Shown one piece after another: positions 27,298-50,202 of a DNA stretch of 64,000 nt. Source of the DNA: Thiosulfativibrio zosterae (GTDB lineage: Bacteria; Pseudomonadota; Gammaproteobacteria; Thiomicrospirales; Thiomicrospiraceae). Below the pieces are notes generated by a model. That model saw nothing but the letters and a program-made list of their open reading frames with translations, had not been told where the DNA came from and ran no database searches. The stretch lies in NCBI RefSeq assembly GCF_011398155.1, contig NZ_AP021888.1, forward strand, positions 1,781,501 to 1,845,500, in the 5' to 3' direction. Position 1 is the stretch's first letter; each line of letters begins with the position of its first letter. Made by a program: the position numbers and the translations under genes.

Positions 27298-27769
27298 TGC
27301 CATTCAAAAAAACCTCATGCGCCATGCCATTCAACTGTCGCACGACAAAATGGTGGCCGGATTTGGCGGCCCGTTTGGCGCGGTCATCACCAAAGATGGC
27401 GAAGTGATTGCTGAAGGTTATAATCAAGTCACCTCCAGTAACGACCCTACGGCGCACGCCGAAGTCACCGCCATCCGCGAAGCCTGCAAAAAACTCAATA
27501 CCTTTGATTTAAGCGGCTGTCAAATTTACACCAGCTGCGAACCCTGCCCCATGTGCCTAAGCGCCATTTACTGGGCGCGCCTCGACACCATCTATTACGC
27601 CAACTCGCGCCAAGACGCGGCAGACATAGGGTTTGATGACGAAATGCTCTACAACGAAATTCCCAAACCCATTTTAGAACGCTCTATTCCCACCTATCGA
27701 TTGCTCGAAGACGAGGCCATTCATCCCTTTACTTTATGGAAAAATAAAAGCGACAAAATTCATTATTGA
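27278..27769 (+). CDS. guaD: Guanine deaminase, CMP/dCMP-deaminase fold
   Basis: Deaminates guanine to xanthine. Zinc motif HAEVTAIREACKKL with the catalytic Glu, and SCEPCPMCLSAIYWARL (CxxC), are intact. The C-terminal half (ANSRQDAADIGFDDEMLYNEI) matches the GuaD subfamily of small deaminases such as B. subtilis GuaD. It overlaps xdhC by 20 bases, so the product xanthine feeds the neighbouring dehydrogenase. A second, unrelated amidohydrolase-type guanine/8-oxoguanine deaminase is encoded at 48847. Confidence 0.92.
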   Translation: MSQPSFDAIQKNLMRHAIQLSHDKMVAGFGGPFGAVITKDGEVIAEGYNQVTSSNDPTAHAEVTAIREACKKLNTFDLSGCQIYTSCEPCPMCLSAIYWARLDTIYYANSRQDAADIGFDDEMLYNEIPKPILERSIPTYRLLEDEAIHPFTLWKNKSDKIHY

Positions 27770-27789
27770 TTGTCCAAGAGGATTGCACT

Positions 27790-29346
27790 ATGTCACAGGC
27801 CAGATTACAGCTTGAACAAATCACCAAAGCCTTTCCCGGATGCCTTGCCAACGACCAAGTGCATTTGGCCATTTTACCCGGCGAAATTCATGCACTATTG
27901 GGCGAAAATGGCGCAGGAAAAAGCACCCTCGTTAAAATGATTTACGGCCTACTCAAACCCGACCAAGGCCAAATTTTATGGGAGGGCGAAGCGGTGGATA
28001 TCAGCAGTCCCAAGGTTGCGCGCAGTTTGGGTATTGGCATGGTGTTTCAACATTTTTCGTTATTCGAAGCCCTCACCGTGCTGGAAAATATTGCGGTCGG
28101 TATGGATGGCGATTTTGATTTAAAAACACTTGAAAAGCGCATTAATGAAGTGTCGCAAAACTATGGTTTATTTATTGACCCTAAAATGACCATTCACGAT
28201 TTATCGGTTGGCGAACGCCAACGCGTGGAAATTATTCGCTGTTTATTACAAGCGCCCAAATTGCTGATTATGGACGAACCCACCTCGGTGCTCACCCCAC
28301 AAGAAGTCGATAAATTGTTTGTCACCCTCAAACGCCTGTCGGACGAAGGGGTGTCAATTTTATACATCAGCCATAAGCTAGACGAAATCAAAGCACTCTG
28401 CCACAAAGCCACTATTTTGCGGGGTGGACGCTACATTCAAGAACTCGATCCCACCGCAGAAACTGCCCAAAGTATGGCGCAATTGATGGTCGGCGAAAAA
28501 ATCACGCCCCCAAAACGCACCGCCTCAACGGCATTTGGCAAGGAAGTCATTCGGGTTAAAAATCTATCGCTCAAGTCTTCTCAACCGTTTGGCAACGACA
28601 TTAAAAATGTCAGCTTTATGATTCGCGAAGGTGAAATTTTGGGGGTGGCTGGCATCGCGGGCAATGGCCAAACGGAACTGCTGTCGGCACTCAGTGGCGA
28701 AGCCGATACCGCTGTCGATAGCATAGTGATTCACGGTCGTCCCAGTGGCAATTTACCGACCAATCAACGCCGAATGTTTGGCATGGCTTATGTACCTGAA
28801 GAACGCTTAGGTCATGCGTCTGTCCCCAATAATGCGCTCCATGAAAATGCGTTTTTAAGTGGTTACCAAACCCAAAACTTGCAAAAACTGGGATTCATTA
28901 ATTTCAAAAAACGCAATGAATACGCTCAAATGATTTGCGACAAATACAAAGTTAAACACAGCGGCATTGGTGCAGCAGCTAAGAGTTTGTCGGGCGGGAA
29001 TTTACAAAAATTTATCGTAGGTCGCGAAATCGAACAAGGCCCTAGCCTACTCATCGCCGCGCAACCCACCTGGGGCGTGGATGCGGGTGCCGCCGCGGCG
29101 ATTCATCAATCGATTTTAAATCTGGCCGAAAAAAATAGCGCCGTGTTACTGCTCTCCCAAGATTTGGACGAGTTGTTTGCGGTCTGTGATTCGATTTGCG
29201 TGATTTATGAAGGCACGCTTTCAGCTGCCTACCCGGTCAATCAAATCAGTCGTGAACAAATTGGATTATTGATGGGGGGTGTCACGCCACCCGGTATGTC
29301 CGTCATGGACAATGCGAAATTAGGAGAAGATTATGATGCAGCTTAA
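27790..29346 (+). CDS. BMP-type nucleoside/purine ABC transporter, double ATPase
   Basis: Two fused ABC domains (518 residues) as in the RbsA/YufO-like class. The first has Walker A GENGAGKST, signature LSVGERQRVEI and Walker B LLIMDEPTSVL; the second has a degenerate P-loop (GIAGNGQTELLSALSG) and signature LSGGNLQKFIVGREI. The start at 27790 (MSQARLQLEQ) follows AAGAGG. Works with the two following permeases; the cognate BMP-family binding protein is 17 kb away at 46622. Substrate probably purine bases or nucleosides. Confidence 0.93.
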   Translation: MSQARLQLEQITKAFPGCLANDQVHLAILPGEIHALLGENGAGKSTLVKMIYGLLKPDQGQILWEGEAVDISSPKVARSLGIGMVFQHFSLFEALTVLENIAVGMDGDFDLKTLEKRINEVSQNYGLFIDPKMTIHDLSVGERQRVEIIRCLLQAPKLLIMDEPTSVLTPQEVDKLFVTLKRLSDEGVSILYISHKLDEIKALCHKATILRGGRYIQELDPTAETAQSMAQLMVGEKITPPKRTASTAFGKEVIRVKNLSLKSSQPFGNDIKNVSFMIREGEILGVAGIAGNGQTELLSALSGEADTAVDSIVIHGRPSGNLPTNQRRMFGMAYVPEERLGHASVPNNALHENAFLSGYQTQNLQKLGFINFKKRNEYAQMICDKYKVKHSGIGAAAKSLSGGNLQKFIVGREIEQGPSLLIAAQPTWGVDAGAAAAIHQSILNLAEKNSAVLLLSQDLDELFAVCDSICVIYEGTLSAAYPVNQISREQIGLLMGGVTPPGMSVMDNAKLGEDYDAA

Positions 29347-30415
29347 ACTCGAAGCGCGCAGTATGGCTTCCACCAAAATGACCTATTTATCCCCCATTTT
29401 GGCGGTGGTGCTCACCTTGATTTCTGGCATGATTTTATTTGCCAGCATGGGGCATTCGCCGTTAGAAGGTTTGTATGTATTTTTTGTTGAACCCATTACC
29501 AGCGTTTATGGCTTGGGCGAACTGGCGGTAAAAGCCACGCCACTCATTTTGATTGCCGTGGGATTGGCGATTGGGTTTAAAGCCAATGTTTGGAATATCG
29601 GTGCCGAAGGTCAATTGGTGATGGGCGCGATTGTGGGCGGCGGTTTGGCGTTGTTTTTTCATGAATCCGACAGCGCATGGGTGCTGCCACTGATGCTGAT
29701 AGGCGGCATGCTTGGCGGCATGGCTTGGGCCGCAATTCCTGCGTTTTTGAAAACCCGCTTTAACACCAGCGAAATTCTCACCAGCTTGATGCTCACCTAT
29801 GTCGCTATTTTACTGCTCAACTTTATGGTCAATGGCCCTTATCGTGATCCAACAGGCTACAACTTCCCAGAATCTCGCATGTTTGCCGAATCCGCTTTGT
29901 TGCCTATTTTATTAGAAGGCACACGCTTGAATTTGGGCAGCTTGATTACGCTGCTAATCCTTGCCGCTTTATGGGTAATGCTCTCCAGAACCATAATTGG
30001 TTTTCAAGTGCATGTGGTTGGCCAAGCGCCGAATGCAGCGCAATATGCCGGCTTTAATCACAAAAAGATTGTCTGGTTTACTTTTTTACTGGGCGGTGCT
30101 TTGGCGGGGTTGGCAGGGCTCATGGAAGTGGCAGGGCCAATTGGGCAACTCCTCCCTACCATTTCCCCAGGATACGGCTTTACAGCCATTATCGTCGCCT
30201 TTTTAGGGCGTTTACATCCTGTTGGCATTTTATTGGCGGGCCTGCTCATGGCTTTATCCTACTTGGGTGGCGAAACCGCACAAATCGAAATGGGCTTGCC
30301 GATTGCGCTCACAGGGGTTTTTCAAGGACTATTACTGTTCTTTTTACTGGCCGCCGATGTGCTGATTTTGTACCGCTTAAAACTAACTTTTAAATCCGCT
30401 CAAGGAGTGAACTGA
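29333..30415 (+). CDS. BMP-type ABC transporter permease 1
   Basis: A 360-residue inner-membrane permease of the YufP/NupP class with about nine or ten membrane segments. The conserved NVWNIGAEGQLVMGAIVGG and the GFTAIIVAFLGRLHPVGI segments are family marks. It overlaps the ATPase gene by 14 bases and is preceded by AGGAGA. It pairs with the second permease for import of nucleosides/purines. Confidence 0.92.
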   Translation: MMQLKLEARSMASTKMTYLSPILAVVLTLISGMILFASMGHSPLEGLYVFFVEPITSVYGLGELAVKATPLILIAVGLAIGFKANVWNIGAEGQLVMGAIVGGGLALFFHESDSAWVLPLMLIGGMLGGMAWAAIPAFLKTRFNTSEILTSLMLTYVAILLLNFMVNGPYRDPTGYNFPESRMFAESALLPILLEGTRLNLGSLITLLILAALWVMLSRTIIGFQVHVVGQAPNAAQYAGFNHKKIVWFTFLLGGALAGLAGLMEVAGPIGQLLPTISPGYGFTAIIVAFLGRLHPVGILLAGLLMALSYLGGETAQIEMGLPIALTGVFQGLLLFFLLAADVLILYRLKLTFKSAQGVN

Positions 30416-30416
30416 T

Positions 30417-31343
30417 ATGGACTTTACCCTAGACACCTATTCACTCATCATCGTCACCATCATCGGTGCTGCCACGCCTTTATTATTAGCCGCACTCGGT
30501 GAGCTGATTAACGAAAAAGCTGGTGTGCTTAATTTAGGATTAGAAGGCATGATGATTGTCGGCGCAGTGGTCGCCTTTTTTACGGTCACCAGCACAGGCA
30601 GTGCAATCCTTGGCGTTTTAGCGGCCATTTTATCGGGCATGGCGATGGCTTTGGTATTTAGCTTTTTAACCCTGTCGTTGCAATCCAATCAAGTTGCAAC
30701 CGGTCTGGCACTTACCATTTTTGGCATTGGCTTAAGCTCGTTGATTGGTAAAAGCCTAGTCGGCATTGCCTATGAAGGCTTACCCAAACTGGACATCCCT
30801 TATTTGACCGATTTACCCTTTATTGGCAATGTGTTATTCAGCCATGATATTTTGGTGTATTTCTCTATTTTCATGGTGTTTGCCACCACTTATTTCCTCA
30901 ACAAAACCAAGTCAGGCTTGGTGTTAAGAGCCGTTGGCGAATCGCATGATGCCGCCCATTCCATTGGCTACCCAGTGATTAAAATTCGCTATATGGCCGC
31001 ACTCTATGGTGGCGCTATGAGTGGTTTAGCGGGTGCTTATTTATCACTTTCCTACTCGCCCATGTGGGCCGACAATATGACCGCAGGTCGTGGTTGGATT
31101 GCTTTGGCGCTGGTGGTATTTGCGATGTGGATGCCATCTCGCGTATTGATGGGTGCCTACATGTTCGGTGGCATTACCATCTTGCAACTGCACGGACAAG
31201 GACTGGGCTTGGATGTCCCTTCCGAATTCTTATCCATGCTGCCCTATTTAGCCACCATCGTGGTGCTGGTACTTATCTCAAGACAAGCCCAAAACAACTT
31301 TGCACCCGCCTGTTTGGGCAAACCGTTTTATTCTAGTCACTGA
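30417..31343 (+). CDS. BMP-type ABC transporter permease 2
   Basis: A 308-residue permease of the YufQ/NupQ class; GELINEKAGVLNLGLEGMMIVGAVVAFF is diagnostic and RAVGESHDAAHSIGYPV is the cytoplasmic coupling loop. The start follows the previous stop by one base (TGATATG). Last gene of the plus-strand purine operon; a 7-bp stem-loop without a T run follows at 31369-31386. Confidence 0.92.
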   Translation: MDFTLDTYSLIIVTIIGAATPLLLAALGELINEKAGVLNLGLEGMMIVGAVVAFFTVTSTGSAILGVLAAILSGMAMALVFSFLTLSLQSNQVATGLALTIFGIGLSSLIGKSLVGIAYEGLPKLDIPYLTDLPFIGNVLFSHDILVYFSIFMVFATTYFLNKTKSGLVLRAVGESHDAAHSIGYPVIKIRYMAALYGGAMSGLAGAYLSLSYSPMWADNMTAGRGWIALALVVFAMWMPSRVLMGAYMFGGITILQLHGQGLGLDVPSEFLSMLPYLATIVVLVLISRQAQNNFAPACLGKPFYSSH

Positions 31344-31460
31344 ATCAAGCACTATAATCACTCAAGCTCCCATGCTCCTGCATGGGAATCCCTCAAATTA
31401 GGGTCATCAAAAGCGACCTTAATTCAAAAACCACAAATTTTTTTTTGATTCCAGCTAAAA

Positions 31461-31521
31461 GCAGGCTAAAGCCTGCGCCCCAAAAATGGCAATTTCCATA
31501 GGGGCGAAGGCTTTAGCCTTC
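31461..31521. repeat. REP-like inverted pair B
   Basis: GCAGGCTAAAGCCTGCGCCCC (31461-31481) and GGGGCGAAGGCTTTAGCCTTC (31501-31521), tails facing each other, 19 bases apart. Each module is itself a palindrome able to form a hairpin. Confidence 0.85.
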
Positions 31522-31567
31522 CTGGATTTTTACCCAAGCCTGTCTCCCCTGTTTGAGATTTTCATTT

Positions 31568-32060: not shown

Positions 32061-32105
32061 AACAGAAACCTTAAAAGCAGAAAAATAAACCGATGACTAA
32101 TCCCA

Positions 32106-32171
32106 GAAGGCTAAAGCCTTCGCCCCATTAAACTTCGGAACCCAATAACTGGGGCGCAGGCTTTAGCCTGC
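32106..32171. repeat. REP-like inverted pair C
   Basis: GAAGGCTAAAGCCTTCGCCCC (32106-32126) and GGGGCGCAGGCTTTAGCCTGC (32151-32171), tails facing each other, 24 bases apart. As in the other pairs one arm has the GAAGGC stem and the other the GCAGGC stem. Confidence 0.85.
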
Positions 32172-32249
32172 TTTTAAATCCAAATAATTCAATGCCCAAA
32201 ATAAATGCCTAATGAACAACCCGTCTTACGCACTCATCCAAAAAAATAT

Positions 32250-32266
32250 TGCATTAAATTGGTGCA
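32250..32266. promoter_or_regulatory. NtrC-like enhancer site
   Basis: TGCATTAAATTGGTGCA differs from the classical glnA site TGCACTATATTGGTGCA at two positions. It lies about 65-80 bases upstream of the sigma-54 -24 element, a normal enhancer distance. Confidence 0.75.
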
Positions 32267-32327: not shown

Positions 32328-32343
32328 CGGCACGCCACTTGCT
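32328..32343 (+). promoter_or_regulatory. Sigma-54 promoter of the guanidine operon
   Basis: CGGCACG-CCAC-TTGCT matches the consensus TGGCACG-N4-TTGCW at all but the first and the degenerate last position; GG (32329-32330) and GC (32341-32342) have the obligatory spacing. Transcription would start near 32354, inside the adjoining 28-bp operator. Confidence 0.82.
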
Positions 32344-32370
32344 TATTACAAAATATAAAAATCGTAATAA
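32343..32370. promoter_or_regulatory. 28-bp inverted-repeat operator, guanidine operon
   Basis: TTATTAC-N14-GTAATAA, repeated with the same spacing at 46384. It covers the expected start of transcription and ends 23 bases before the permease ATG. The total length of 28 bp equals that of NikR operators, and a NikR-like gene lies in this operon. Confidence 0.8.
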
Positions 32371-32393: not shown

Positions 32394-33368
32394 ATGGCTC
32401 TTTTCCCCACCGCTTGGACAACCCCTAGAGCACCATTGGACAATGGTTCGCGCCGCCTGCTGACTTTTACCAGTTTTCTGATTCCACTGTTGTTATGGAG
32501 TTTAGTCAGCTATGTGCCTTTTATTTGGCATCCACAAATGCAAATTACCCAACCCGGTGATGTGAGTTACTTTCGAGAGGGAACTTTGGTTGATAAAGAA
32601 GTGTTTTATCGAGAACTGGCCAAGTTAGAATCCCAAGCACAAGAAAAGACAGTGAATCTTCCACAAGGCAATCCCGCCAACCCTGTTTACCTGCCTGCAC
32701 CCCACGAAGTGGCGATGGCACTTTACACCGCTTTTACCACCGAACCTAAACGCTCCAACGAACCTTGGTTTCATGAAAGTTTAGGGCATTCTATTCAAAT
32801 CATTGCTTGGGGATTTTTCTGGTCAATGGTGTTTGGATTGCCTCTGGGGATTATGGCAGGCACCTATGAGTCGGCTTCCAAAATTGTTGAACCCTTTACC
32901 GAGTTCTTCCGCTATTTACCCGCCCCTGCCTTTGGGGCTTTAGCCGTTGCCATTTTGGGGATTTATGACGCCCCCAAAATTGCCATTATTTTTATCGGTA
33001 CTTTTTTTCAAATGGTGCTCATTACCGCCAACACCACGCGCAAATTTAATCTAGCCATCATAGAAGCTGCCCAAACGCTGGGTTGCAAAGGGTTTTCCTT
33101 AATTCGTCGGGTGATTTTACCCGGCGTTTTGCCAGACCTTTATCGCGATATGCGCATCCTACTTGGTTGGGCATGGACCTATTTAATCGTGTCTGAATTG
33201 ATTGGCGCCAGCTCTGGGATTACTTGGTTTATTACCCAACAAGCGCGCTACAAAAATTTTGACAATGTCTTCGCCGCGATTTTGATTATCGGTATTATCG
33301 GTATCGTGACTGACATAATTTTAGCCAAACTTGGCAAGCGACTTTTCCCTTGGAATAACGGACACTAA
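32394..33368 (+). CDS. ABC transporter permease (probable guanidine uptake)
   Basis: A 324-residue NitT/TauT-type permease. A first membrane segment (about 27-45) is followed by an unusually long extracytoplasmic stretch (about 50-115) before the core of about five segments with the EAA loop (EAAQTLGCKGFSLIRRVILPGVLPDL). The start at 32394 (MALFPTAW) follows AGG; the frame is open upstream to 32322 but that would translate the promoter and operator. First gene of the guanidine operon, 11 bases before the ATPase gene. No binding-protein gene adjoins; the best partner is at 45393. Confidence 0.9.
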   Translation: MALFPTAWTTPRAPLDNGSRRLLTFTSFLIPLLLWSLVSYVPFIWHPQMQITQPGDVSYFREGTLVDKEVFYRELAKLESQAQEKTVNLPQGNPANPVYLPAPHEVAMALYTAFTTEPKRSNEPWFHESLGHSIQIIAWGFFWSMVFGLPLGIMAGTYESASKIVEPFTEFFRYLPAPAFGALAVAILGIYDAPKIAIIFIGTFFQMVLITANTTRKFNLAIIEAAQTLGCKGFSLIRRVILPGVLPDLYRDMRILLGWAWTYLIVSELIGASSGITWFITQQARYKNFDNVFAAILIIGIIGIVTDIILAKLGKRLFPWNNGH

Positions 33369-33379
33369 GAGGTCAAACT

Positions 33380-34300
33380 ATGAATCACCAAACAGACACT
33401 CATCCGTTAACTGGCTTACAAACCCCTGAAATTGCTGATCGTTATCAGCGTATTTTTAAGCGTCCTCTAGCCCTAAAAATTGAAGGTTTGCACAAATCGT
33501 TTGAACACAAAGGTGTGTCGCACAAGGTGCTTAATAACATTGATTTTACGGCTTATAAACGCGAATTTATTTGCGTGGTGGGCCCATCTGGTTGCGGTAA
33601 ATCAACCTTGGCGCGTTTGGTTGCTGGCTTAGAAACTCAAGAGCAAGGCCATATTTTGGTAGATGAGAAACCCGTTACTGAACCCGGCCCAGACCGCGGC
33701 ATGGTGTTTCAAAGTTATTCGCTTTTTCCGTGGATGACGGTCAAACAAAATGTGATGTTTGGGATGACGCAAAACGGCATGTCGAAAAACGCTGCTGAAT
33801 CTGAGGCTTTTCAATGGATTGATTTAGTCGGACTGACTAAATTTGTGGATGCTTATCCCCACCAACTTTCAGGCGGCATGAAACAGCGTGTGGCAATTAT
33901 TCGTGCGCTGGCCACCCAACCGAAGATTTTACTGATGGACGAGCCTTTTGCTGCACTCGACCCGCAAAATCGTTTAAAAATGCAACAGTATTTATTAGAA
34001 ATTTGGCAAAACATCGACATCACCATTTTTTTCATCACTCACGATTTAGATGAAGCCATTTTTTTAGCCGATCGCATTCTGGTGTTAGAAGCCAATCCTG
34101 GGCGCGTGCATGAAGTGATTAATGTGCCTTTAGCGCGCCCTCGCCCCAAGGATGTGCAAGATTCTGAGGCGTTTAAGGCAACCAAAACCTATATAGAAGC
34201 CTTGGTGCATCCGCCAACGCCAGAAGAAACCGACACTGAAGATAAACTCAGCATGGTGCGCCTAGTGCCCATCAATGCGCAAGTACCGGATATTTTTTAA
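33380..34300 (+). CDS. ABC transporter ATP-binding protein (probable guanidine uptake)
   Basis: A 306-residue ATPase: Walker A GPSGCGKSTLARL, signature LSGGMKQRVAI, Walker B ILLMDEPFAALD, H-loop ITHDLDEAIFLADRI. It is longer than usual at both ends (about 30 residues before the ABC core and a 60-residue tail after it). Its stop codon is directly followed by the ATG of the NikR-like gene. Transporters of this type are common beside guanidine/urea carboxylase genes. Confidence 0.92.
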   Translation: MNHQTDTHPLTGLQTPEIADRYQRIFKRPLALKIEGLHKSFEHKGVSHKVLNNIDFTAYKREFICVVGPSGCGKSTLARLVAGLETQEQGHILVDEKPVTEPGPDRGMVFQSYSLFPWMTVKQNVMFGMTQNGMSKNAAESEAFQWIDLVGLTKFVDAYPHQLSGGMKQRVAIIRALATQPKILLMDEPFAALDPQNRLKMQQYLLEIWQNIDITIFFITHDLDEAIFLADRILVLEANPGRVHEVINVPLARPRPKDVQDSEAFKATKTYIEALVHPPTPEETDTEDKLSMVRLVPINAQVPDIF

Positions 34301-34780
34301 ATGACAAACACTCATGCAAATGCTCAATCTAAAGGACTGGTGCGAACCAGTGCCTCTTTGCCAGCGCAGGTGCTTGAAGACCTAGATCAGTTGGTGATTG
34401 ACCGTGGTTTTCCCAACCGCTCGGCTTTGCTGGCTGAAATGATTCAAAAAGAAGTTTCCGCTTTTAGACAAGACTATACTAATGAGATTATGGCCGGCAC
34501 CCTAACCATGGTCTATGAGCACAACACCCCTGGTTTGCAAATTAAACTCAATCAACTCAAACACTTGCATGTGGCCGAGATTATCTCATCTACCCAAGTT
34601 CAGCTGATGGACCAACAAACCCTAGAGGTGATTTTAATGCAAGGAGCAGCGCAAAAACTCAATAGCATTTCGCATGAATTACTGGCAAACCGTGGCGTTA
34701 AAACAGGCAATCTCTACTTAACTAATTCATCCTTACCCCCAATTTATACGCCTGATACTGCTTCACAGGAGACAAAATAA
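34301..34780 (+). CDS. NikR-like ribbon-helix-helix repressor without nickel site
   Basis: A 159-residue regulator with NikR architecture: N-terminal ribbon-helix-helix (LVRTSASLPAQVLEDLDQL; NRSALLAEMIQKEV) and a C-terminal ACT-like ligand domain (VYEHNTPGLQIKLNQLKHLH ... RGVKTGNLYLTN). Aligned with E. coli NikR, the nickel ligands His87, His89 and Cys95 fall at Gln99, Gln101 and Thr107; only the counterpart of His76 (His88) remains. It should therefore sense something other than nickel, guanidine or a product being the obvious candidate. It most likely binds the two TTATTAC-N14-GTAATAA sites. Its gene abuts the ATPase and overlaps the next gene by one base. Confidence 0.82.
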   Translation: MTNTHANAQSKGLVRTSASLPAQVLEDLDQLVIDRGFPNRSALLAEMIQKEVSAFRQDYTNEIMAGTLTMVYEHNTPGLQIKLNQLKHLHVAEIISSTQVQLMDQQTLEVILMQGAAQKLNSISHELLANRGVKTGNLYLTNSSLPPIYTPDTASQETK

Positions 34781-35526
34781 TGAGCGATTTTCCAAAACCC
34801 AAACCCAGTTTTATCTGGTCTGAAATCCTGCCGGGTGGCGCACACTGGTCGGGTGTGATTCGTCGCGGCACCGTGTTGCGCCTCACCGATTTGGAGGGCA
34901 ATGCCAATGTAGCTATGTTAATCAACAATCTCGAAGTCAAAAACGAACGCTACAACATGCCCGATACCCTCAAGGCGCAAAAAACCGCTTTTTTAACCGC
35001 ACCCAATATGTGTTTTAGCGACATGGGGCGTGTGATGTGTTCCATTATTGCCGACACCTGCGGCTGGCACGATACGCTGGGCGGATTATCTAATGCCAGT
35101 TTGGTGCAAAAAAAATATGGCATCAAAACCTATCAGCAAGCCCACAACGACTATTTTAAAAATGCTTACGACAGCTTGCTTAACGAACTCGGCAAATGGG
35201 GGCTCAACGCCAGCGATGTGGTGCCCAATATCAATTGGTTTAGCAAAGTGCGCATTGAAGACTCAGGGCAAATGACTTTTGTGCCCAATCATTCGCAAGC
35301 AGGCAGCACTGTTGATTTGCGCTTTGAAATGGACTGCATTGTCTGCCTGTCTACCGTGCAACACCCGCTTGACCCTAATATTTACTATGCTCCAAAACCA
35401 GTAGAGTTAAGTGTGTCTAAAGCAAACCCCGTATTGGCTGATGACCCCTGCCGCAAACACCGCGCCGAAAATGAACGCGCTTATTACAACACCAAAACTT
35501 ACTACGGAGAAAACCCCAATGAATAA
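34780..35526 (+). CDS. Carboxyguanidine deiminase subunit (DUF1989, UAAP1-like)
   Basis: 248-residue DUF1989 protein, formerly named urea carboxylase-associated protein. Members were shown to form a heteromeric carboxyguanidine deiminase that turns carboxyguanidine into allophanate and ammonia. Family segments seen: [61 protein letters not shown] with a conserved Cys/His cluster, and [13 protein letters not shown] overlap with the repressor gene and an 8-base overlap with the partner subunit. Which of CgdA/CgdB it equals I leave open. Confidence 0.9.
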
Positions 35527-36163
35527 GCAATTTTTTACCGAAAACAGGGTGGTTTACCGAGCAGTGGTGGCGGCTGGCGATCCGTGGATGTATGAAGTTA
35601 AAGCTGGGCAATATTTCCGTATTGTGGATTTAGAAGGCAATCAGGCTGTAGATACCCTGTTTTACAACGCCCAAGACCATTCCGAGCGTTACTCTGCAAC
35701 CGACACCATTCGCGAACAGGGCAATATTTATTTGACCACGGGTTCGGTGCTGCAATCTAATCTCATCAACCCCATGTTAACCATAGTCGATGACACCTGC
35801 GGTCGTCACGACACCATTGGTGGCGCTTGTTCTGCTGAGAGTAACACAGTGCGTTATGCCATTGAAAAACGCTCAATGCATTCCTGTCGCGACTCTTTTT
35901 TAACGGCGCTTGGCAAATGCAGCTGTAATCATGATAAACCCATGACCAAAGCAGACCTTTCCAGCAACATAAACTTTTTTATGAATGTGCCTGTGTCACC
36001 CGATGGCCATTTAGATTTTGACGATGGCATTTCAGCACCCGGGCGTTATGTCGAAATGCAAGCCCATATGGATGTGTTGGTTTTGGTGAGCAATTGCCCA
36101 CAACTCAACAATCCGTGTAATGGCTATAACCCAACCCCTGTTGAAATGATTATCTGGCAGTAA
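35519..36163 (+). CDS. Carboxyguanidine deiminase subunit (DUF1989, UAAP2-like)
   Basis: 214-residue second DUF1989 subunit. It has [39 protein letters not shown] and [14 protein letters not shown], the counterparts of the segments in the first subunit, plus several cysteines ([19 protein letters not shown]). The ATG at 35519 overlaps the upstream stop by 8 bases; the longer open frame is an artefact of the overlap. Only 36 bases separate its stop from the riboswitch. Confidence 0.9.
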
Positions 36164-36199: not shown

Positions 36200-36243
36200 C
36201 TTGGGACGACCCAAGATGCGAACCCACTTCAGAACGGTCTGAA
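36200..36243 (+). promoter_or_regulatory. Guanidine-II riboswitch (mini-ykkC)
   Basis: Two hairpins with the diagnostic ACGR loops: CTTGGG-ACGA-CCCAAG (36200-36215) and TTCAGA-ACGG-TCTGAA (36228-36243), both with perfect 6-bp stems, joined by a 12-base linker. The Shine-Dalgarno AAGGAA (36245-36250) follows hairpin 2 at once, as expected for translational control by loop-loop pairing in the presence of guanidine. It lies inside the operon, between the deiminase and carboxylase genes. Upstream, CGCTTTAACAA is repeated in tandem (36174-36184, 36186-36196). Confidence 0.93.
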
Positions 36244-36255
36244 AAAGGAAACCCC

Positions 36256-39200
36256 ATGTTTAAAAAAGTGCTCATTGCCAATCGTGGCGCCATCGCCACG
36301 CGCATTATCCGTACCTTAAAAAAAATGAACATTCAGTCAGTCGCCCTCGCATCAGACGCCGACCGAGCGTCTTTGCATGTGCAAGCGGCGGATGAAGTTA
36401 TTTTTTTAAAAGGCAATGCGGCTAGTGAAACCTATTTAAATGTGCCACTGATTTTAGAGCATGCCAAAGCCTTAGGGGTGGATGCTGTGCATCCAGGTTA
36501 TGGATTCCTCAGCGAAAACACCTCATTTGCCGAAGCCTGTGAAGCCATCGGCATCACCTTTATCGGTCCAGAGCCCAAACACATTCGCGATTTTGGCCTT
36601 AAACACACCGCCCGCGAACTCGCCATTCAAGCTCAAGTGCCTTTATTGCCCGGCTCGGGCTTGTTGGAATCGATTGAACATGCCAAACAAGAAGCCAATC
36701 GAATTGGTTATCCCGTGATGCTTAAAAGTACCGCTGGCGGCGGTGGCATCGGCATGCAAAAATGTGACGACGAAAAAACCCTTGCCGACACTTTTGAACA
36801 GGTCGCCCGCATGAGCCAAAATGCCTTTGGGCAAAACGGCTTATTTTTAGAGAAGTTTGTGGTCAATGCACGCCATCTCGAAATTCAAATTTTTGGTGAT
36901 GGGCAAGGCAAGGTGGTTTCCTTTGGCGAGCGTGACTGTTCATTACAACGCCGCAATCAAAAGGTGGTGGAAGAAACCCCAGCCTTTGGCGTCGCGCGTT
37001 CACAAATTGCCGAAATGGAAGCTCATGCCATTCGTTTGGGCGAGTTGGTCAACTACAAATCCGCCGGAACCGTGGAATATGTTTACGATGCCGACACTTC
37101 GCAATACTACTTTTTAGAAGTCAACACGCGTTTACAAGTAGAACACGGCATTACCGAAATGGTGAGAGAGGTTGATTTGGTGCAATGGATGGTGCATGTG
37201 GCTTATCACAGTGCTTTCCCAGAAGCTGTCAAGCCAGCCAAAGGTCATGCCATTGAAGTACGCGTCTATGCGGAAGACCCGTTTAAAAACTTCCAACCCA
37301 GCTCGGGCAAACTGACCGGTTGGCAAATGCCATCAAATTGTCGAATCGACACCTGGTGCGACCGTGGCATAGAAGTCAGTTCTTTTTATGACCCGATGTT
37401 GGCCAAAATCATCGTCACCGGACAAGACCGAAAAAGCGCCGTACAGGCTTTGCAAGCGGCTATGAGCAAAACCCGCATTGATGGATTTGAAACCAATATC
37501 GCTTTTTTAGAAGCCCTCAGTGCAGCGCCAGAATTTGTGGCCGCCGAGGGTTTATACACCCAGTTTTTAAACCGTTTTACCCATGCCCCTTACAGTGTTG
37601 AAGTACTTAACCCTGGCACCCATTCTATGCTCGTGAGTTATCCAGGGCGCGTGGGCTATTGGGATATAGGTGTACCACCCTCTGGCCCAATGGATGCCCT
37701 ATCGCATCGTTTGGCCAACCGTTGTTTAAACAACCCTGAAGATGCCGCCACCATTGAAATGACCGTTTCGGGTGTGAGCCTCAGCTTTGACCGTGACACC
37801 ATGATTTGCATCACCGGCGCAGACATTCAGCCGACTCTAGACAAACAACCCATTCCACAAAATGTTGCTGTGCCGGTTAAAGCCGGGCAACAACTCAAGT
37901 CCAAAGTGATTAAATCACTCGGTCAACGCGCTTATTTAGCCATCGCCGGTGGATTTGATGTGCCCGATTATATGCGCAGTAAAACGACTTTTTCTTTGGG
38001 CAAGTTTGGCGGACATGGCGGTCGACTATTGCGTGCGGGCGATGTGTTGCATTTAAGTAAAACCCAGGTACAAACCACCCCCAATGTTTTGCCTGCAGGC
38101 TTGCTCGCCAAACTGCAAAACGAAGTGGAAATTGCGGTGATTTATGGTCCGCAAGGTTGCCCAGATTTTTTCACCGAGCAGGACATAGCGACCTTTTTCG
38201 CCACCCAATGGGAAGTGCATTACAACTCCAGCCGCACGGGGATTCGTTTAATCGGCCCTAAACCCCAATGGGCGAGAAGCTCTGGCGGCGAAGCGGGCTT
38301 GCACCCATCTAATATTCACGACAATCCCTATGCCATAGGTGCCATCGACTTTACCGGGGATATGCCTGTTATTCTGGCGCAAGATGGCCCAAGTTTGGGA
38401 GGGTTTGTGTGCCCAGCCACCATTATCGAAGCCGAACAATGGAAAATGGGACAACTACGCCCTGGCGATAAAATTCGTTTTAAACCCGTATCAACCGAAA
38501 TGGCGGAAGCTGCTTTAAAAGCACAAGAAGCCGCGCTGAATGCCTTAGATGCCAGTGCGTTACTGCCGCTTAGTTTTTTAGCGCACCCAACTGAACAATC
38601 TTGTTTGGCCGTTGAAGTCTCAACCGATGAGCACGAATTTGGTTATAAAATTCGTCGCTCTGGGGACAGTCATGTGTTGTTGGAATATGGCGCCATGGAA
38701 TTGGATTTAGCATTGCGCTTTAGAATTCAAGTCTTGTTTGAACGCTTAAAAACCCTTAAAACTGAAGCCAAAAACAACCAGGCCTGGTCATTTTTAGAGG
38801 ATTTAACGCCAGGAATTCGCTCTTTACAGGTGCATTACGATCCAAAACAAATTTCTCAAGGCGAGATGATAAAACGCTTGGTAATGCTTGAAAAAGAGAT
38901 TGCATCAGCCAAAGACCTAACGGTTAAAAGCCGCATTGTGCGTTTGCCACTGTCTTGGGATGACCCAAGCACCAAATTAGCCATTGAAAAATATATGCAA
39001 TCCGTGCGCCCTGATGCGCCTTGGTGTCCAAGTAATATTGAATTCATTCGCCGCATTAACGGGCTTGACTCTATTGAAGATGTGAAGCGCATTGTGTTTG
39101 ATGCCAAATATTTGGTCATGGGCTTAGGCGATGTTTATCTAGGCGCACCGGTTGCCACGCCTTTAGACCCGCGCCATCGTTTGGTCACCACCAAATACAA

Positions 39201-46621: not shown

Positions 46622-47710
46622 TTATTTAGGCAACTTACCTTCAACCCCTTCCACATACCAGTCCATGCCCAACAAAGCACCATCGGGTAAATGCTCACCC
46701 GCTTTTACCTTAAGCACACCGGCCTGATCTTTTATGGGCCCTTGGAAAGGATGAATAGAGCCATCCTCAATACCTGCTATGGTTTTTTCTGCCATGGCGA
46801 CAACCTCTGGAGGCACGGCATCACTGAAAGGTGCAATACCGACCATGCCAGACTTAATTCCACCCCAAGTGTCTTCAGATTTCCAAGTACCGTCCATCAC
46901 CGCTTTGACTTGGTCAACATAATAGCCACGCCAATTATCAATAATGGCACTCAACTGAGCTTTCGGTGCAAAGGCTTTCATGTCCGAGGCCTGACCTATA
47001 CCATAAACCCCGCGCTGTTCAGCCACTTGCAAGGGCGCAGGCGAATCTGTGTGTTGAAAAACCACATCCACACCCTGGTCAATCAAAGCCTTAGCCGCAT
47101 CGCCTTCTTTACCTGGGTCATACCAAGAGTTCACCCAAACCACTTTGATAGTTGCCTCTGGATTCACCGATTTTAGCCCCAATAAAGTCGCATTAATACC
47201 GCGCACCACTTCTGGAATAGGGAAAGAACCGATATAACCAATCACATTAGATTTAGTCATTTTACCGGCGACTTGCCCCATCACATAACGACCTTCATAA
47301 AAACGCGCACTGTAAACACCGACATTTTTAGCGGTTTTATAACCTGTCGCATGCTCAAATTTGACATTTGGAAATTGCTTAGCCACTTTTAAAGTAGGGT
47401 TCATAAAACCAAACGAAGTGGTAAAAATTAAATCGTGACCTGTTGAGGCAAGCTTACGAATAACGCGCTCAGCATCTGCGCCTTCGGGTACTTTTTCGAC
47501 AAAGGTGGTTTCTACTTTATCGCCAAATTCTTTTTCAACCGCTAATCGCCCTTGGTCATGCTGATAACTCCAGCCATGGTCACCGACTGGCCCAACATAC
47601 ACAAAACCAACCTTAGTCTTATCTTCGGCTTGCGCCAAAGGTGCTGCTAAACCGGCAACGGATAAGGCCAGAGCAGCCACCAAAGGCTTTAAAAATGTTC
47701 TTCTATTCAT
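46622..47710 (-). CDS. BMP-family nucleoside/purine-binding protein
   Basis: A 362-residue basic-membrane-protein (PnrA/Med-like) binding protein. The N-terminus MNRRTFLKPLVAALALSVAGLAAPLAQA carries a twin-arginine-like RRTFLK motif, suggesting Tat export. VGFVYVGPVGDHGWSYQHDQGR and the segment with GVDVVFQHTDSPAPLQVAEQRGVYGIGQ fit the family. ATPase and permeases of the matching transporter are at 27790-31343. It follows the Tsx-like porin gene and is likely cotranscribed with it under the GntR operators. The ATG at 47710 has GGAG six bases upstream. Confidence 0.92.
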   Translation of the reverse strand: MNRRTFLKPLVAALALSVAGLAAPLAQAEDKTKVGFVYVGPVGDHGWSYQHDQGRLAVEKEFGDKVETTFVEKVPEGADAERVIRKLASTGHDLIFTTSFGFMNPTLKVAKQFPNVKFEHATGYKTAKNVGVYSARFYEGRYVMGQVAGKMTKSNVIGYIGSFPIPEVVRGINATLLGLKSVNPEATIKVVWVNSWYDPGKEGDAAKALIDQGVDVVFQHTDSPAPLQVAEQRGVYGIGQASDMKAFAPKAQLSAIIDNWRGYYVDQVKAVMDGTWKSEDTWGGIKSGMVGIAPFSDAVPPEVVAMAEKTIAGIEDGSIHPFQGPIKDQAGVLKVKAGEHLPDGALLGMDWYVEGVEGKLPK

Positions 47711-47767
47711 GTGTTTCTCCACTTTGGCATTTAGAGCGTCTTTAAAATTAAACGCCCATTCAAATGA

Positions 47768-48565
47768 TTAGAAAGTCCACTTAACAGCGGCTTGAGGAAC
47801 ACCTTCATCAATGCCTTTGGAACCATATTTGTTGTGCCAGTAGCTATACTCTACACCCACTGAAACTTTCTTTGGCGCACCAAAAAAGCTACCAACATCC
47901 ATCGTCAAACGAGGTGAAGCAACAATGTTCTCAACTTTATTTACATCTTTTTCTTCAGTGGCGTAATCTAGATAACCTTCAAAAGTCCAACTCGTAGGAC
48001 CTACATTAAAGGGTGACATCCAAACAATGGTGGCTTGTTGACCTGAACCTGTTTTACCTGGCGCAAATTTTGAAGTTGATGTTCTTTGATAAAGTGTAAG
48101 GCTTGCAACCGGAACACCTGGAATATCCAAAGCAAACCCAACACCTGCTAATAATGCATTGGTATTCTGACCCAACTCCCAAGTCCCTGCGATACTAACA
48201 TCCTTAACAAAACCAAATGACATGTCTTTACCGGTCATTTTGCTTAATGAAAGCGATGGTGAGAATTCACCATAAAAACTACTCACACCGTCAGCAGAAG
48301 TGTCATTAAACGCTTTACCAGCAGAATTTGGGTTAGTGACATCAAAGAAGAAAAAGTTAGAACCATATTTCCAACCATCAACATGTTCTAGCGTTAAAAC
48401 TTGTGTATTGAATTTGGTGTCGGCTGGCACATTTTTATAGCCTGCACCATCCAATAACAACATACTAGTCGAACTCCAATCCGCAGCTTGCGCTGATGCG
48501 CCCATTGCCAATCCTGCTACTAACGCTAAACTGCTTACTAAACTTTTTTTCTTAAATGAATTCAT
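47768..48565 (-). CDS. Tsx-like nucleoside-specific outer-membrane channel
   Basis: A 265-residue outer-membrane beta-barrel of the Tsx/OmpK family: signal peptide ending GASAQA, then ADWSSTSMLLLDGAGYK, LEHVDGWKYGSNFFFFDVTN and SFYGEFSPSLSLSK, with a C-terminal aromatic residue (VKWTF) as barrel assembly signal. The ATG at 48565 has GGTGG upstream; the longer open frame runs through the operator at 48605. Probably admits nucleosides or bases for the BMP transporter. Confidence 0.87.
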   Translation of the reverse strand: MNSFKKKSLVSSLALVAGLAMGASAQAADWSSTSMLLLDGAGYKNVPADTKFNTQVLTLEHVDGWKYGSNFFFFDVTNPNSAGKAFNDTSADGVSSFYGEFSPSLSLSKMTGKDMSFGFVKDVSIAGTWELGQNTNALLAGVGFALDIPGVPVASLTLYQRTSTSKFAPGKTGSGQQATIVWMSPFNVGPTSWTFEGYLDYATEEKDVNKVENIVASPRLTMDVGSFFGAPKKVSVGVEYSYWHNKYGSKGIDEGVPQAAVKWTF

Positions 48566-48604
48566 TGTTTGCCACCTTCTTTTGTAAAATTTTATGTAAA
48601 CAAC

Positions 48605-48616
48605 ATTGTACACAAT
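48605..48616. promoter_or_regulatory. GntR-type operator before the porin gene
   Basis: ATTGTACACAAT, 40 bases upstream of the Tsx-like start. Confidence 0.75.
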
Positions 48617-48746
48617 GTATTTAAAACAATTAAGCAATCGTTAGACCAACTTTGTCAAAGTTATGAATAAATTATGACAAAAATATTAACCTGTTGATTT
48701 ATAATGATTTACTCATATTTATGATTAAATTTTGACCTAAAAACAA

Positions 48747-48756
48747 CCAGGCCTGG
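48747..48756. repeat. CCAGGCCTGG palindrome, copy 7
   Basis: Intergenic perfect copy with flanks almost identical to those of copy 1 (CCTAAAAACAA on the left, TTATTTTTA on the right). Confidence 0.85.
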
Positions 48757-48827
48757 TTATTTTTAATGCACTTTTATGGGTTTTTTGCACCATTTAAAAC
48801 AAAATTTTGCACTTTAAATTTTCTAGG

Positions 48828-48839
48828 ATTGTACACAAT
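48828..48839. promoter_or_regulatory. GntR-type operator downstream of the deaminase gene
   Basis: ATTGTACACAAT, 7 bases beyond the deaminase stop codon and 263 bases upstream of the Tsx-like start. Confidence 0.7.
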
Positions 48840-48846
48840 CTGTAAT

Positions 48847-50202
48847 TTAACTGATTAATGAACGCGCGCTTTTGGAATGATTGGCCATCAAGGCACTGAT
48901 ATCTAAGCCCAATAACTGCCCGTCTACAACACGCCATTGCCCAGCAACCATTAAACGGTCTACTGCTTGTGCACCACACATGATTAAAGCCGCCAAAGGA
49001 TCGCCCGCTCCTGAAAAACGCAGTTCATCTAATTTAAACAGTGCCAAGTCTGCTTGTTTGCCCACCGCAATTTCACCAATGTCCGAACGCCCTAAGCAGC
49101 CAGCAGAACCTTGTGTTGCCCAACGCAAGACATCCAAATGGGTTATTTCATCTGCTTGATAACGCAAGCGCCCAATCAATAAGGCCTGGCGTACTTCGTT
49201 AATCATATTCGAACCATCGTTTGACGCTGACCCATCAACCCCTATACCAACCGGACAACCCGACGCTTCTAACTCCAACCCTCGACAGATGCCCGAGGCC
49301 AACACCATATTGGACGATGGACAATGACTAATCCCCACGCCTGCTTGCCCTAAGCGCAACACTTCTGCATCATTAAAATGTATGCCATGCGCCAACCATA
49401 CTCGATTGGAAAGCCAGTTTACTTTTTGCAAATAATCCAATGGGCGTAAGCCAAACATTTTGAGACAAAACGCATTTTCATCTTCGGTTTCCGCTAGATG
49501 GGTATGCAAGCGCACATCAAACTGTTCTGCCATGGCTGCTGATTGCACCATTAAATCTTCTGTGACCGAAAAGGGTGAACAGGGTGCAAGCGCAATGCGT
49601 GTCATCGCGCCATCTTGGCGTTGGTGATAGGTTTTAATCAGGCGTTCGCTGTCATCCAATATAACCTGCTCAGTTTGCACGGTATTTTGGGGCGGTAATC
49701 CCCCTTGTTCCACACCCAAACTCATTGAACCGCGGGTTAAATGGACACGCATCCCCAACTTTTGCGCCGCTGCAATTTGAATATCTATGGCATTTTCTAA
49801 GCCATCGGTAAATACATAATGGTGGTCAGAAGCCGTGGTACAGCCAGATAACATCAATTCGGCCATTGCCAAGGTTGAGGCAATTTCGAGTTGCGCTTGT
49901 TGCAAATTAGCCCACACAGGATACAAGGTTTTTAACCAAGGAAACAAGCGTTTATTGAGCGCTGGCGGATAGGCACGCGTCAGGGTTTGGTAAAAATGGT
50001 GATGAACATTGATAAGCCCAGGCAAAATAACCTGTTCGCTGGCATCAAAAACCTGATAGTTTGGCGTCTTGGGGATTGCGCCCTGCGCAACGAGTTCGAT
50101 AATTTCGCTGCCCAGCACCACCAAACCGCCTCTTGCGTCTTGGTCGTTACCAGTAAAAATGGCTAAGGGGTTTTGAATCCACAGAGGTTGGCTTGAGGAC
50201 AT
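48847..50202 (-). CDS. 8-oxoguanine/guanine deaminase, amidohydrolase family
   Basis: A 451-residue amidohydrolase-superfamily deaminase. Metal ligands appear in INVHHHFYQTLTRA, HTHLAETEDEN, LAHGIHF and GIGVDGSASNDGSNM. The HHHFYQTLTRA form resembles the 8-oxoguanine deaminase subgroup (Pa0142-like), which also acts on guanine and isocytosine. It is monocistronic between two GntR-type operators. With GuaD at 27278 the organism has two unrelated enzymes able to deaminate guanine-type bases. Confidence 0.87.
   Translation of the reverse strand: MSSSQPLWIQNPLAIFTGNDQDARGGLVVLGSEIIELVAQGAIPKTPNYQVFDASEQVILPGLINVHHHFYQTLTRAYPPALNKRLFPWLKTLYPVWANLQQAQLEIASTLAMAELMLSGCTTASDHHYVFTDGLENAIDIQIAAAQKLGMRVHLTRGSMSLGVEQGGLPPQNTVQTEQVILDDSERLIKTYHQRQDGAMTRIALAPCSPFSVTEDLMVQSAAMAEQFDVRLHTHLAETEDENAFCLKMFGLRPLDYLQKVNWLSNRVWLAHGIHFNDAEVLRLGQAGVGISHCPSSNMVLASGICRGLELEASGCPVGIGVDGSASNDGSNMINEVRQALLIGRLRYQADEITHLDVLRWATQGSAGCLGRSDIGEIAVGKQADLALFKLDELRFSGAGDPLAALIMCGAQAVDRLMVAGQWRVVDGQLLGLDISALMANHSKSARSLIS

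Follow-up and report, generated by a model that had tools for sequence, protein, structure and literature searches.

A regulatory gene in the guanidine operon of Thiosulfativibrio zosterae, located within a 64-kb stretch of DNA (64,000 nucleotides, hereafter the window), probably encodes a NikR-derived, non-nickel repressor of guanidine import and assimilation, with guanidine or a close derivative as its effector. Based on comparative sequence analysis, the assignment of a predicted operator and regulon to this protein is well supported; the regulator is a member of the NikR superfamily by descent, and judged by the ligands and the predicted regulon it is not a NikR.

Pfam recognises an RHH_1 domain (PF01402) at residues 15-50 of the protein (24.3 bits, cut-off 20.5) and NikR_C (PF08753) at residues 65-140 (71.5 bits, cut-off 22), and its best solved relative is the NikR of P. 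horikoshii (2bj1; E = 1e-22, residues 13-143). The protein is a full-length NikR homologue and shares its two-domain architecture, from end to end, with the NikRs of E. coli, H. pylori and P. horikoshii. A predicted structure computed from five input sequences, a low-confidence model with a mean pLDDT of 47.5, has an order of helices and strands that fits NikR. Under each of the five NCBIfam NikR models the protein scores below the cut-off (94.9/105, 71.8/111, 71.4/119, 67.5/83 and 61.8/175 bits). It is the sole NikR_C protein in the T. zosterae genome. Arg15 in the DNA-contact strand is common to NikR and the regulator, whereas Ser17 stands at a DNA-contact position where NikR has Thr.

In NikR, nickel is bound by His87, His89 and Cys95 from one subunit and by His76 from the next (PMC7055735). 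Alignments with 2bj1 and with E. coli NikR place Q99, Q101 and T107 of the regulator at E. coli His87, His89 and Cys95, exactly the replacements that had been proposed from hand alignment, and three of the four nickel ligands are therefore gone. The accompanying claim that the nickel ligands were lost holds for these three but overlooked the fourth: His76 survives as His88, and His62 is likewise retained as His74. All five residues (Q99, Q101, T107, H88 and H74) are invariant in a family alignment of 28 homologous loci. The ligand set reads HQQT in 24/24 family sequences, as against HHHC in all 44 ordinary NikRs compared; the regulator thus has no Cys, and in T. zosterae it also has no equivalents of His87 and His89.

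In a maximum-likelihood tree, 42 sequences of the regulator type are monophyletic with respect to 45 NikRs (support 100/99), and a model of this clade scores its members at 179 bits or more and ordinary NikRs at 135 bits or less. The nickel Cys is missing throughout (Thr in 32 members, Ser in 7, Ile in 2, Val in 1), His88 is lost in 15 of the 42, and the remaining three ligand positions read HQQ, HHH, HNN, YNN, YHN, QHQ, AHF and others. Since the ligands vary freely while operator and neighbourhood stay constant, the metal site does not seem to be the conserved function of the clade. Residues of the old nickel site differ by subclade (QQT, NNT, HHT, HFS), and a conserved guanidine pocket is not evident there. 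Elsewhere in the C-terminal domain, Q114, G115, I95, L112 and the P146 tail are invariant in every clade member, and the conserved Gln114 and the C-terminal PPI(H/Y) tail set the regulator apart from NikR. The suggestion that the protein might define a NikR branch is thus supported by a clade without the Cys, with a predicted operator of its own and confined to operons of the guanidine type or to the transporter and creatininase-GlnT modules belonging to them.

Within the family sample of 62 genomes, in which Hydrogenovibrio and Thiomicrorhabdus are named relatives, a NikR_C protein was found in 24, always of the regulator type. UAAP1, which marks the operon, occurs in precisely these 24 genomes, with one copy truncated where a contig ends, and the remaining 38 have no match above the cut-off. 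A separate nickel NikR in the family was considered and rejected, each of these genomes having one NikR_C protein, which always belongs to the regulator clade. At class level, all nine clade genomes fall among the 29 gammaproteobacterial genomes with UAAP1, and searches of class and phylum yielded further members from gammaproteobacteria and sphingomonads.

The genes and control elements of the T. zosterae locus are listed in the table. The ATPase gene ends at 34300 and the regulator gene begins at 34301, while the stop codon of the latter shares one base (34780) with the following ATG; the zero-base and one-base junctions that had been reported are both present. The label of a guanidine operon likewise stands, given Asp698 of the carboxylase and the guanidine-II-like tandem hairpins ahead of the carboxylase gene. 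In the alignment, Asp698 occupies the position of Asn1330 of the K. lactis urea carboxylase, it is Asp in the relatives as well, and Asp versus Asn at this position is reported to separate guanidine from urea carboxylases (PMC12186494, PMC11410670). Nearly all clade members have the cluster [SBP]-permease-ATPase-regulator-UAAP1-UAAP2-carboxylase-allophanate hydrolase, in which SBP denotes a substrate-binding protein, and the orphan SBP gene of T. zosterae is homologous to the SBP gene heading the operon in other genera. Genes for a creatininase-family enzyme and a type III glutamine synthetase are added in some clusters, and three loci (L068, L103, L110) have this part with no guanidine carboxylase nearby. 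The creatininase-family enzyme (PF02633) and the type III glutamine synthetase were seen in the predicted regulon of these three and of L063, L065, L067 and L107; the module possibly represents a second route or substrate. Genes for an 8-oxoguanine deaminase, a BMP-type binding protein and a BMP-type ABC transporter also lie near the operon (46625-50202, minus strand; 27766-31343, plus strand) and possibly mark an island for purine and nitrogen scavenging. The long gap upstream of the operon contains copies of an inverted element (aaggctaaagcctt) at 31454-31540 and 32097-32183.

Genes and predicted control elements of the guanidine operon and the orphan SBP gene in the T. zosterae window
Feature	Position	Strand	Basis
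NtrC-like inverted site TGCATTAAATTGGTGCA (weak)	32250..32266	.	read from sequence; half-sites in some relatives
Sigma-54 type promoter GGCACGCCACTTGC (GG-N10-GC), abuts operator 1	32329..32342	+	offset conserved in relatives
Predicted operator 1, TTATTAC-N14-GTAATAA, 28-bp dyad at operon promoter	32343..32370	.	conserved in family operons
ABC transporter permease (BPD_transp_1)	32394..33368	+	Pfam; conserved gene order
ABC transporter ATPase	33380..34300	+	Pfam
NikR-derived regulator without nickel ligands, RHH + NikR_C, 159 aa	34301..34780	+	Pfam, PDB 2bj1, ligand columns, tree
UAAP1 (DUF1989), carboxyguanidine deiminase subunit	34780..35526	+	TIGR03425, 349 bits, over cut-off
UAAP2 (DUF1989), carboxyguanidine deiminase subunit	35519..36163	+	TIGR03424, 354 bits, over cut-off
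Guanidine-II (mini-ykkC)-like tandem hairpins, ACGA + ACGG loops, 12 bases before carboxylase ATG	36200..36243	+	hairpin scan, fold
Guanidine carboxylase (annotated urea carboxylase), Asp698	36256..39885	+	TIGR02712, 1766 bits; Asp vs K. lactis Asn
Allophanate hydrolase	39882..41678	+	TIGR02713, 748 bits
Orphan SBP, putative urea/guanidine ABC	45393..46370	-	TIGR03427 best NCBIfam match, 164 bits, under cut-off
Predicted operator 2, identical dyad, 13 bases upstream of SBP ATG	46384..46411	.	window + genome scan

The dyad that we regard as the operator was derived from the upstream regions of nine family operons and then tested on data outside that set. All 19 family operons have it, one with a mismatch. 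Two exact copies exist in the window, the second 12 kb away at the SBP gene on the opposite strand, and a scan for exact matches in the whole 2.65-Mb genome returned only these two. Control of nickel genes had been named in advance as an observation that would speak against the proposal; none of the nickel genes in the T. zosterae genome has an exact predicted operator site, both such sites standing at the guanidine operon and the SBP gene. Twenty cases were fetched from related genomes, and in 18 of them a second site was seen at an SBP gene or at creatininase-GlnT genes; the second-site matches in L154 and L166 adjoin unrelated genes and were taken as chance, and a match in L054 was rejected, being inside a coding sequence. 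Beyond the family, the dyad was found in 16 of 19 other clade loci: distant members with 32-46% protein identity have the same dyad with its 14-base spacer before the first gene, and so do GC-rich clade genomes, where fewer than 0.005 copies per locus are expected. None of 19 control loci governed by a guanidine-I riboswitch contains it. Additional predicted sites were seen in L104, L105, L106 and L108, and in two sphingomonads (L059, site 3840; L061, site 3829) an additional operator faces a divergent TonB-dependent receptor gene, which suggests a guanidine-regulated outer-membrane receptor.

The predicted operator also retains the form of a NikR site. The operator of E. coli NikR is GTATGA-N16-TCATAC (PMC7055735), and the dyads beside ordinary nikR genes (L058, L090, L093, L099) read GTATGAT-N14-ATCATAC or GTATGAC-N14-GTCATAC; they share with the dyad of the regulator the 28-bp geometry of 7-bp arms and a 14-bp spacer. 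NikR, too, acts at a transporter promoter. The half-sites differ by one base, GTATGAC in NikR versus GTATTAC in the regulator clade. The only clade member with Thr17 (L082, locus L110) has an unchanged NikR operator, GTATGAC-N14-GTCATAC, while the other 41 have Ser17 and, where an operator is recognisable, its GTATTAC or GTAATAC form. Residue 17 therefore covaries with the operator base, judging from one clade member and the ordinary NikRs, which ties the protein to the dyad.

In 15 of 19 family operons the sigma-54 core, GG-N10-GC, precedes the operator by a constant 15 bases; in other gammaproteobacteria the offset is usually 21-22 bases. The preliminary description had called the protein a repressor, and the layout of the promoter argues in the same direction, because the predicted operator extends over the region of the sigma-54 promoter in which the start site lies. 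Further upstream is the inverted site TGCATTAAATTGGTGCA, which weakly resembles an NtrC site. Nitrogen control by NtrC and sigma-54 combined with substrate control by the regulator would be the most economical scheme.

The distribution of guanidine riboswitches bears indirectly on the effector. Rfam finds no guanidine-I riboswitch (ykkC, RF00442) in the window or in the T. zosterae genome. In other bacteria this riboswitch heads the same transporter/carboxylase operon as the predicted site of the regulator, probably in response to the same signal, but it acts as RNA in the leader rather than as protein at the promoter, and the two are nearly mutually exclusive. Among the 29 gammaproteobacterial genomes with UAAP1, guanidine-I was found in 19 of 20 without the regulator gene and in 0 of 8 with it; the ninth genome with the regulator gene (G272) has it at a different locus, which is on a separate contig and contains no regulator gene. 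A later, independent sample of alphaproteobacteria gave 8/9 and 0/2, respectively. Combined, these are 27/29 versus 0/10, with a Fisher p of about 1e-7 that is inflated by relatedness. Two families (f124 and f127) contain one genome of either arrangement, and in Acinetobacter (L060) operator and guanidine-I stand in tandem before UAAP1, so that the two are not strictly exclusive.

The guanidine-II riboswitch (mini-ykkC, RF01068) also belongs to this operon; it lies directly ahead of the carboxylase gene, affects the downstream genes only, and occurs both with and without the regulator gene. Perfect 6-bp ACGR hairpins exist exactly twice on both strands of the window (36200-36215 and 36228-36243; 0.15 expected), and the tandem folds at -14.6 kcal/mol. 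Rfam does not list these hairpins in the window at the gathering threshold or at E <= 5, and it calls guanidine-II over threshold at the equivalent place in L063, L066 and L067. Tandem ACGR hairpins are left uncalled in several relatives too, so that a subgroup in the T. zosterae family may escape the Rfam model. Two further guanidine-II riboswitches lie downstream of the allophanate hydrolase gene (L005, 15592-15638; L072, 16229-16275).

A mechanism can be proposed along the following lines. As a tetramer like NikR, the regulator would have a C-terminal ACT-like core carrying two ribbon-helix-helix heads, bind the 28-bp dyads at the operon promoter and at the SBP gene, and presumably block transcription of both. 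NtrC and sigma-54 would report the need for nitrogen and the regulator the substrate. Once inside the cell, guanidine or one of its close derivatives would bind to the C-terminal domain and free the DNA. The regulator would in this way do at the DNA level the job performed elsewhere at the same operon by the guanidine-I riboswitch, while the guanidine-II-like element would still gate the carboxylase and hydrolase genes. Since the regulator stands in for the guanidine-I riboswitch at the operon head, we infer that the effector is most likely guanidine or one of its close derivatives. A more tentative proposal, with the balance leaning slightly against it, is that the protein is a guanidine sensor: guanidinium, bound at or close to the old nickel site with its Gln, Asn or His in place of the ligands, would release the repressor from DNA.

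The same repressor and regulon might respond to another effector, such as carboxyguanidine, allophanate, urea, another guanidino compound or cyclic amide (creatinine, for example), or a nitrogen signal in the form of glutamine or ammonium. We regard this as possible but doubtful: creatininase-like and type III glutamine synthetase genes do belong to the regulon of several genomes, and because three clade members have no guanidine carboxylase nearby the range of effectors may extend beyond guanidine, yet the regulator is exchanged at this operon for the guanidine-I riboswitch, which suggests that both respond to one signal, and nitrogen status already seems to be conveyed through the sigma-54 promoter. 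Riboswitch replacement and regulon content thus favour guanidine, and allophanate, named beside it in the preliminary description, is without specific support. It is improbable that the protein has no effector and merely damps the operon as a constitutive autoregulator. Decay of the ligand site, differing between subclades, would fit such a role, as would the operator that Acinetobacter has at the regulator gene itself (L060, site 6826), but the C-terminal domain is strongly conserved and the replacement of a riboswitch implies sensing.

A metal sensor, for nickel or another metal, acting through His88, His74 and the Gln and Thr side chains is very unlikely in our view. The two His are invariant in the T. 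zosterae family, and a few clade members have H-H-H at the three ligand positions; nevertheless, the Cys has disappeared from the whole clade and the other ligands have turned into Q, N, F, Y, A, V or S with operator and regulon unchanged, and in T. zosterae both exact predicted sites flank guanidine genes only, whereas NikR stands at nickel genes. It would be most surprising, finally, if the dyad were the site of a different regulator and the NikR-like protein acted elsewhere, since the dyad co-occurs with the clade and avoids the riboswitch-controlled loci, has NikR geometry, and changes its base together with residue 17.

Our literature search, which most subscription papers lay outside, found no published description of the regulator clade and nothing joining NikR with urea carboxylase and guanidine; texts containing both NikR and guanidine were unrelated by title, and a match for urea carboxylase with ribbon-helix-helix was unrelated as well. 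A review from 2025 counts riboswitches as the sole guanidine receptors known besides transporters and enzymes, and anticipates guanidine-binding transcription factors (PMC12186494). The clade described here offers a concrete candidate for such a factor, together with a predicted operator, a predicted regulon and a control set; should the protein indeed sense guanidine, no other protein regulator with this property would be known before it. An apparent metalloregulator appears to have changed its class of ligand while keeping the geometry of its operator, and the shift in DNA recognition can be traced to one residue and one base. RNA switch and protein switch appear to have been naturally exchanged at one operon; should guanidinium indeed occupy the former nickel site, NikR would have undergone a switch from metal to organic ligand and, at the same time, a protein would have taken the place of a riboswitch.
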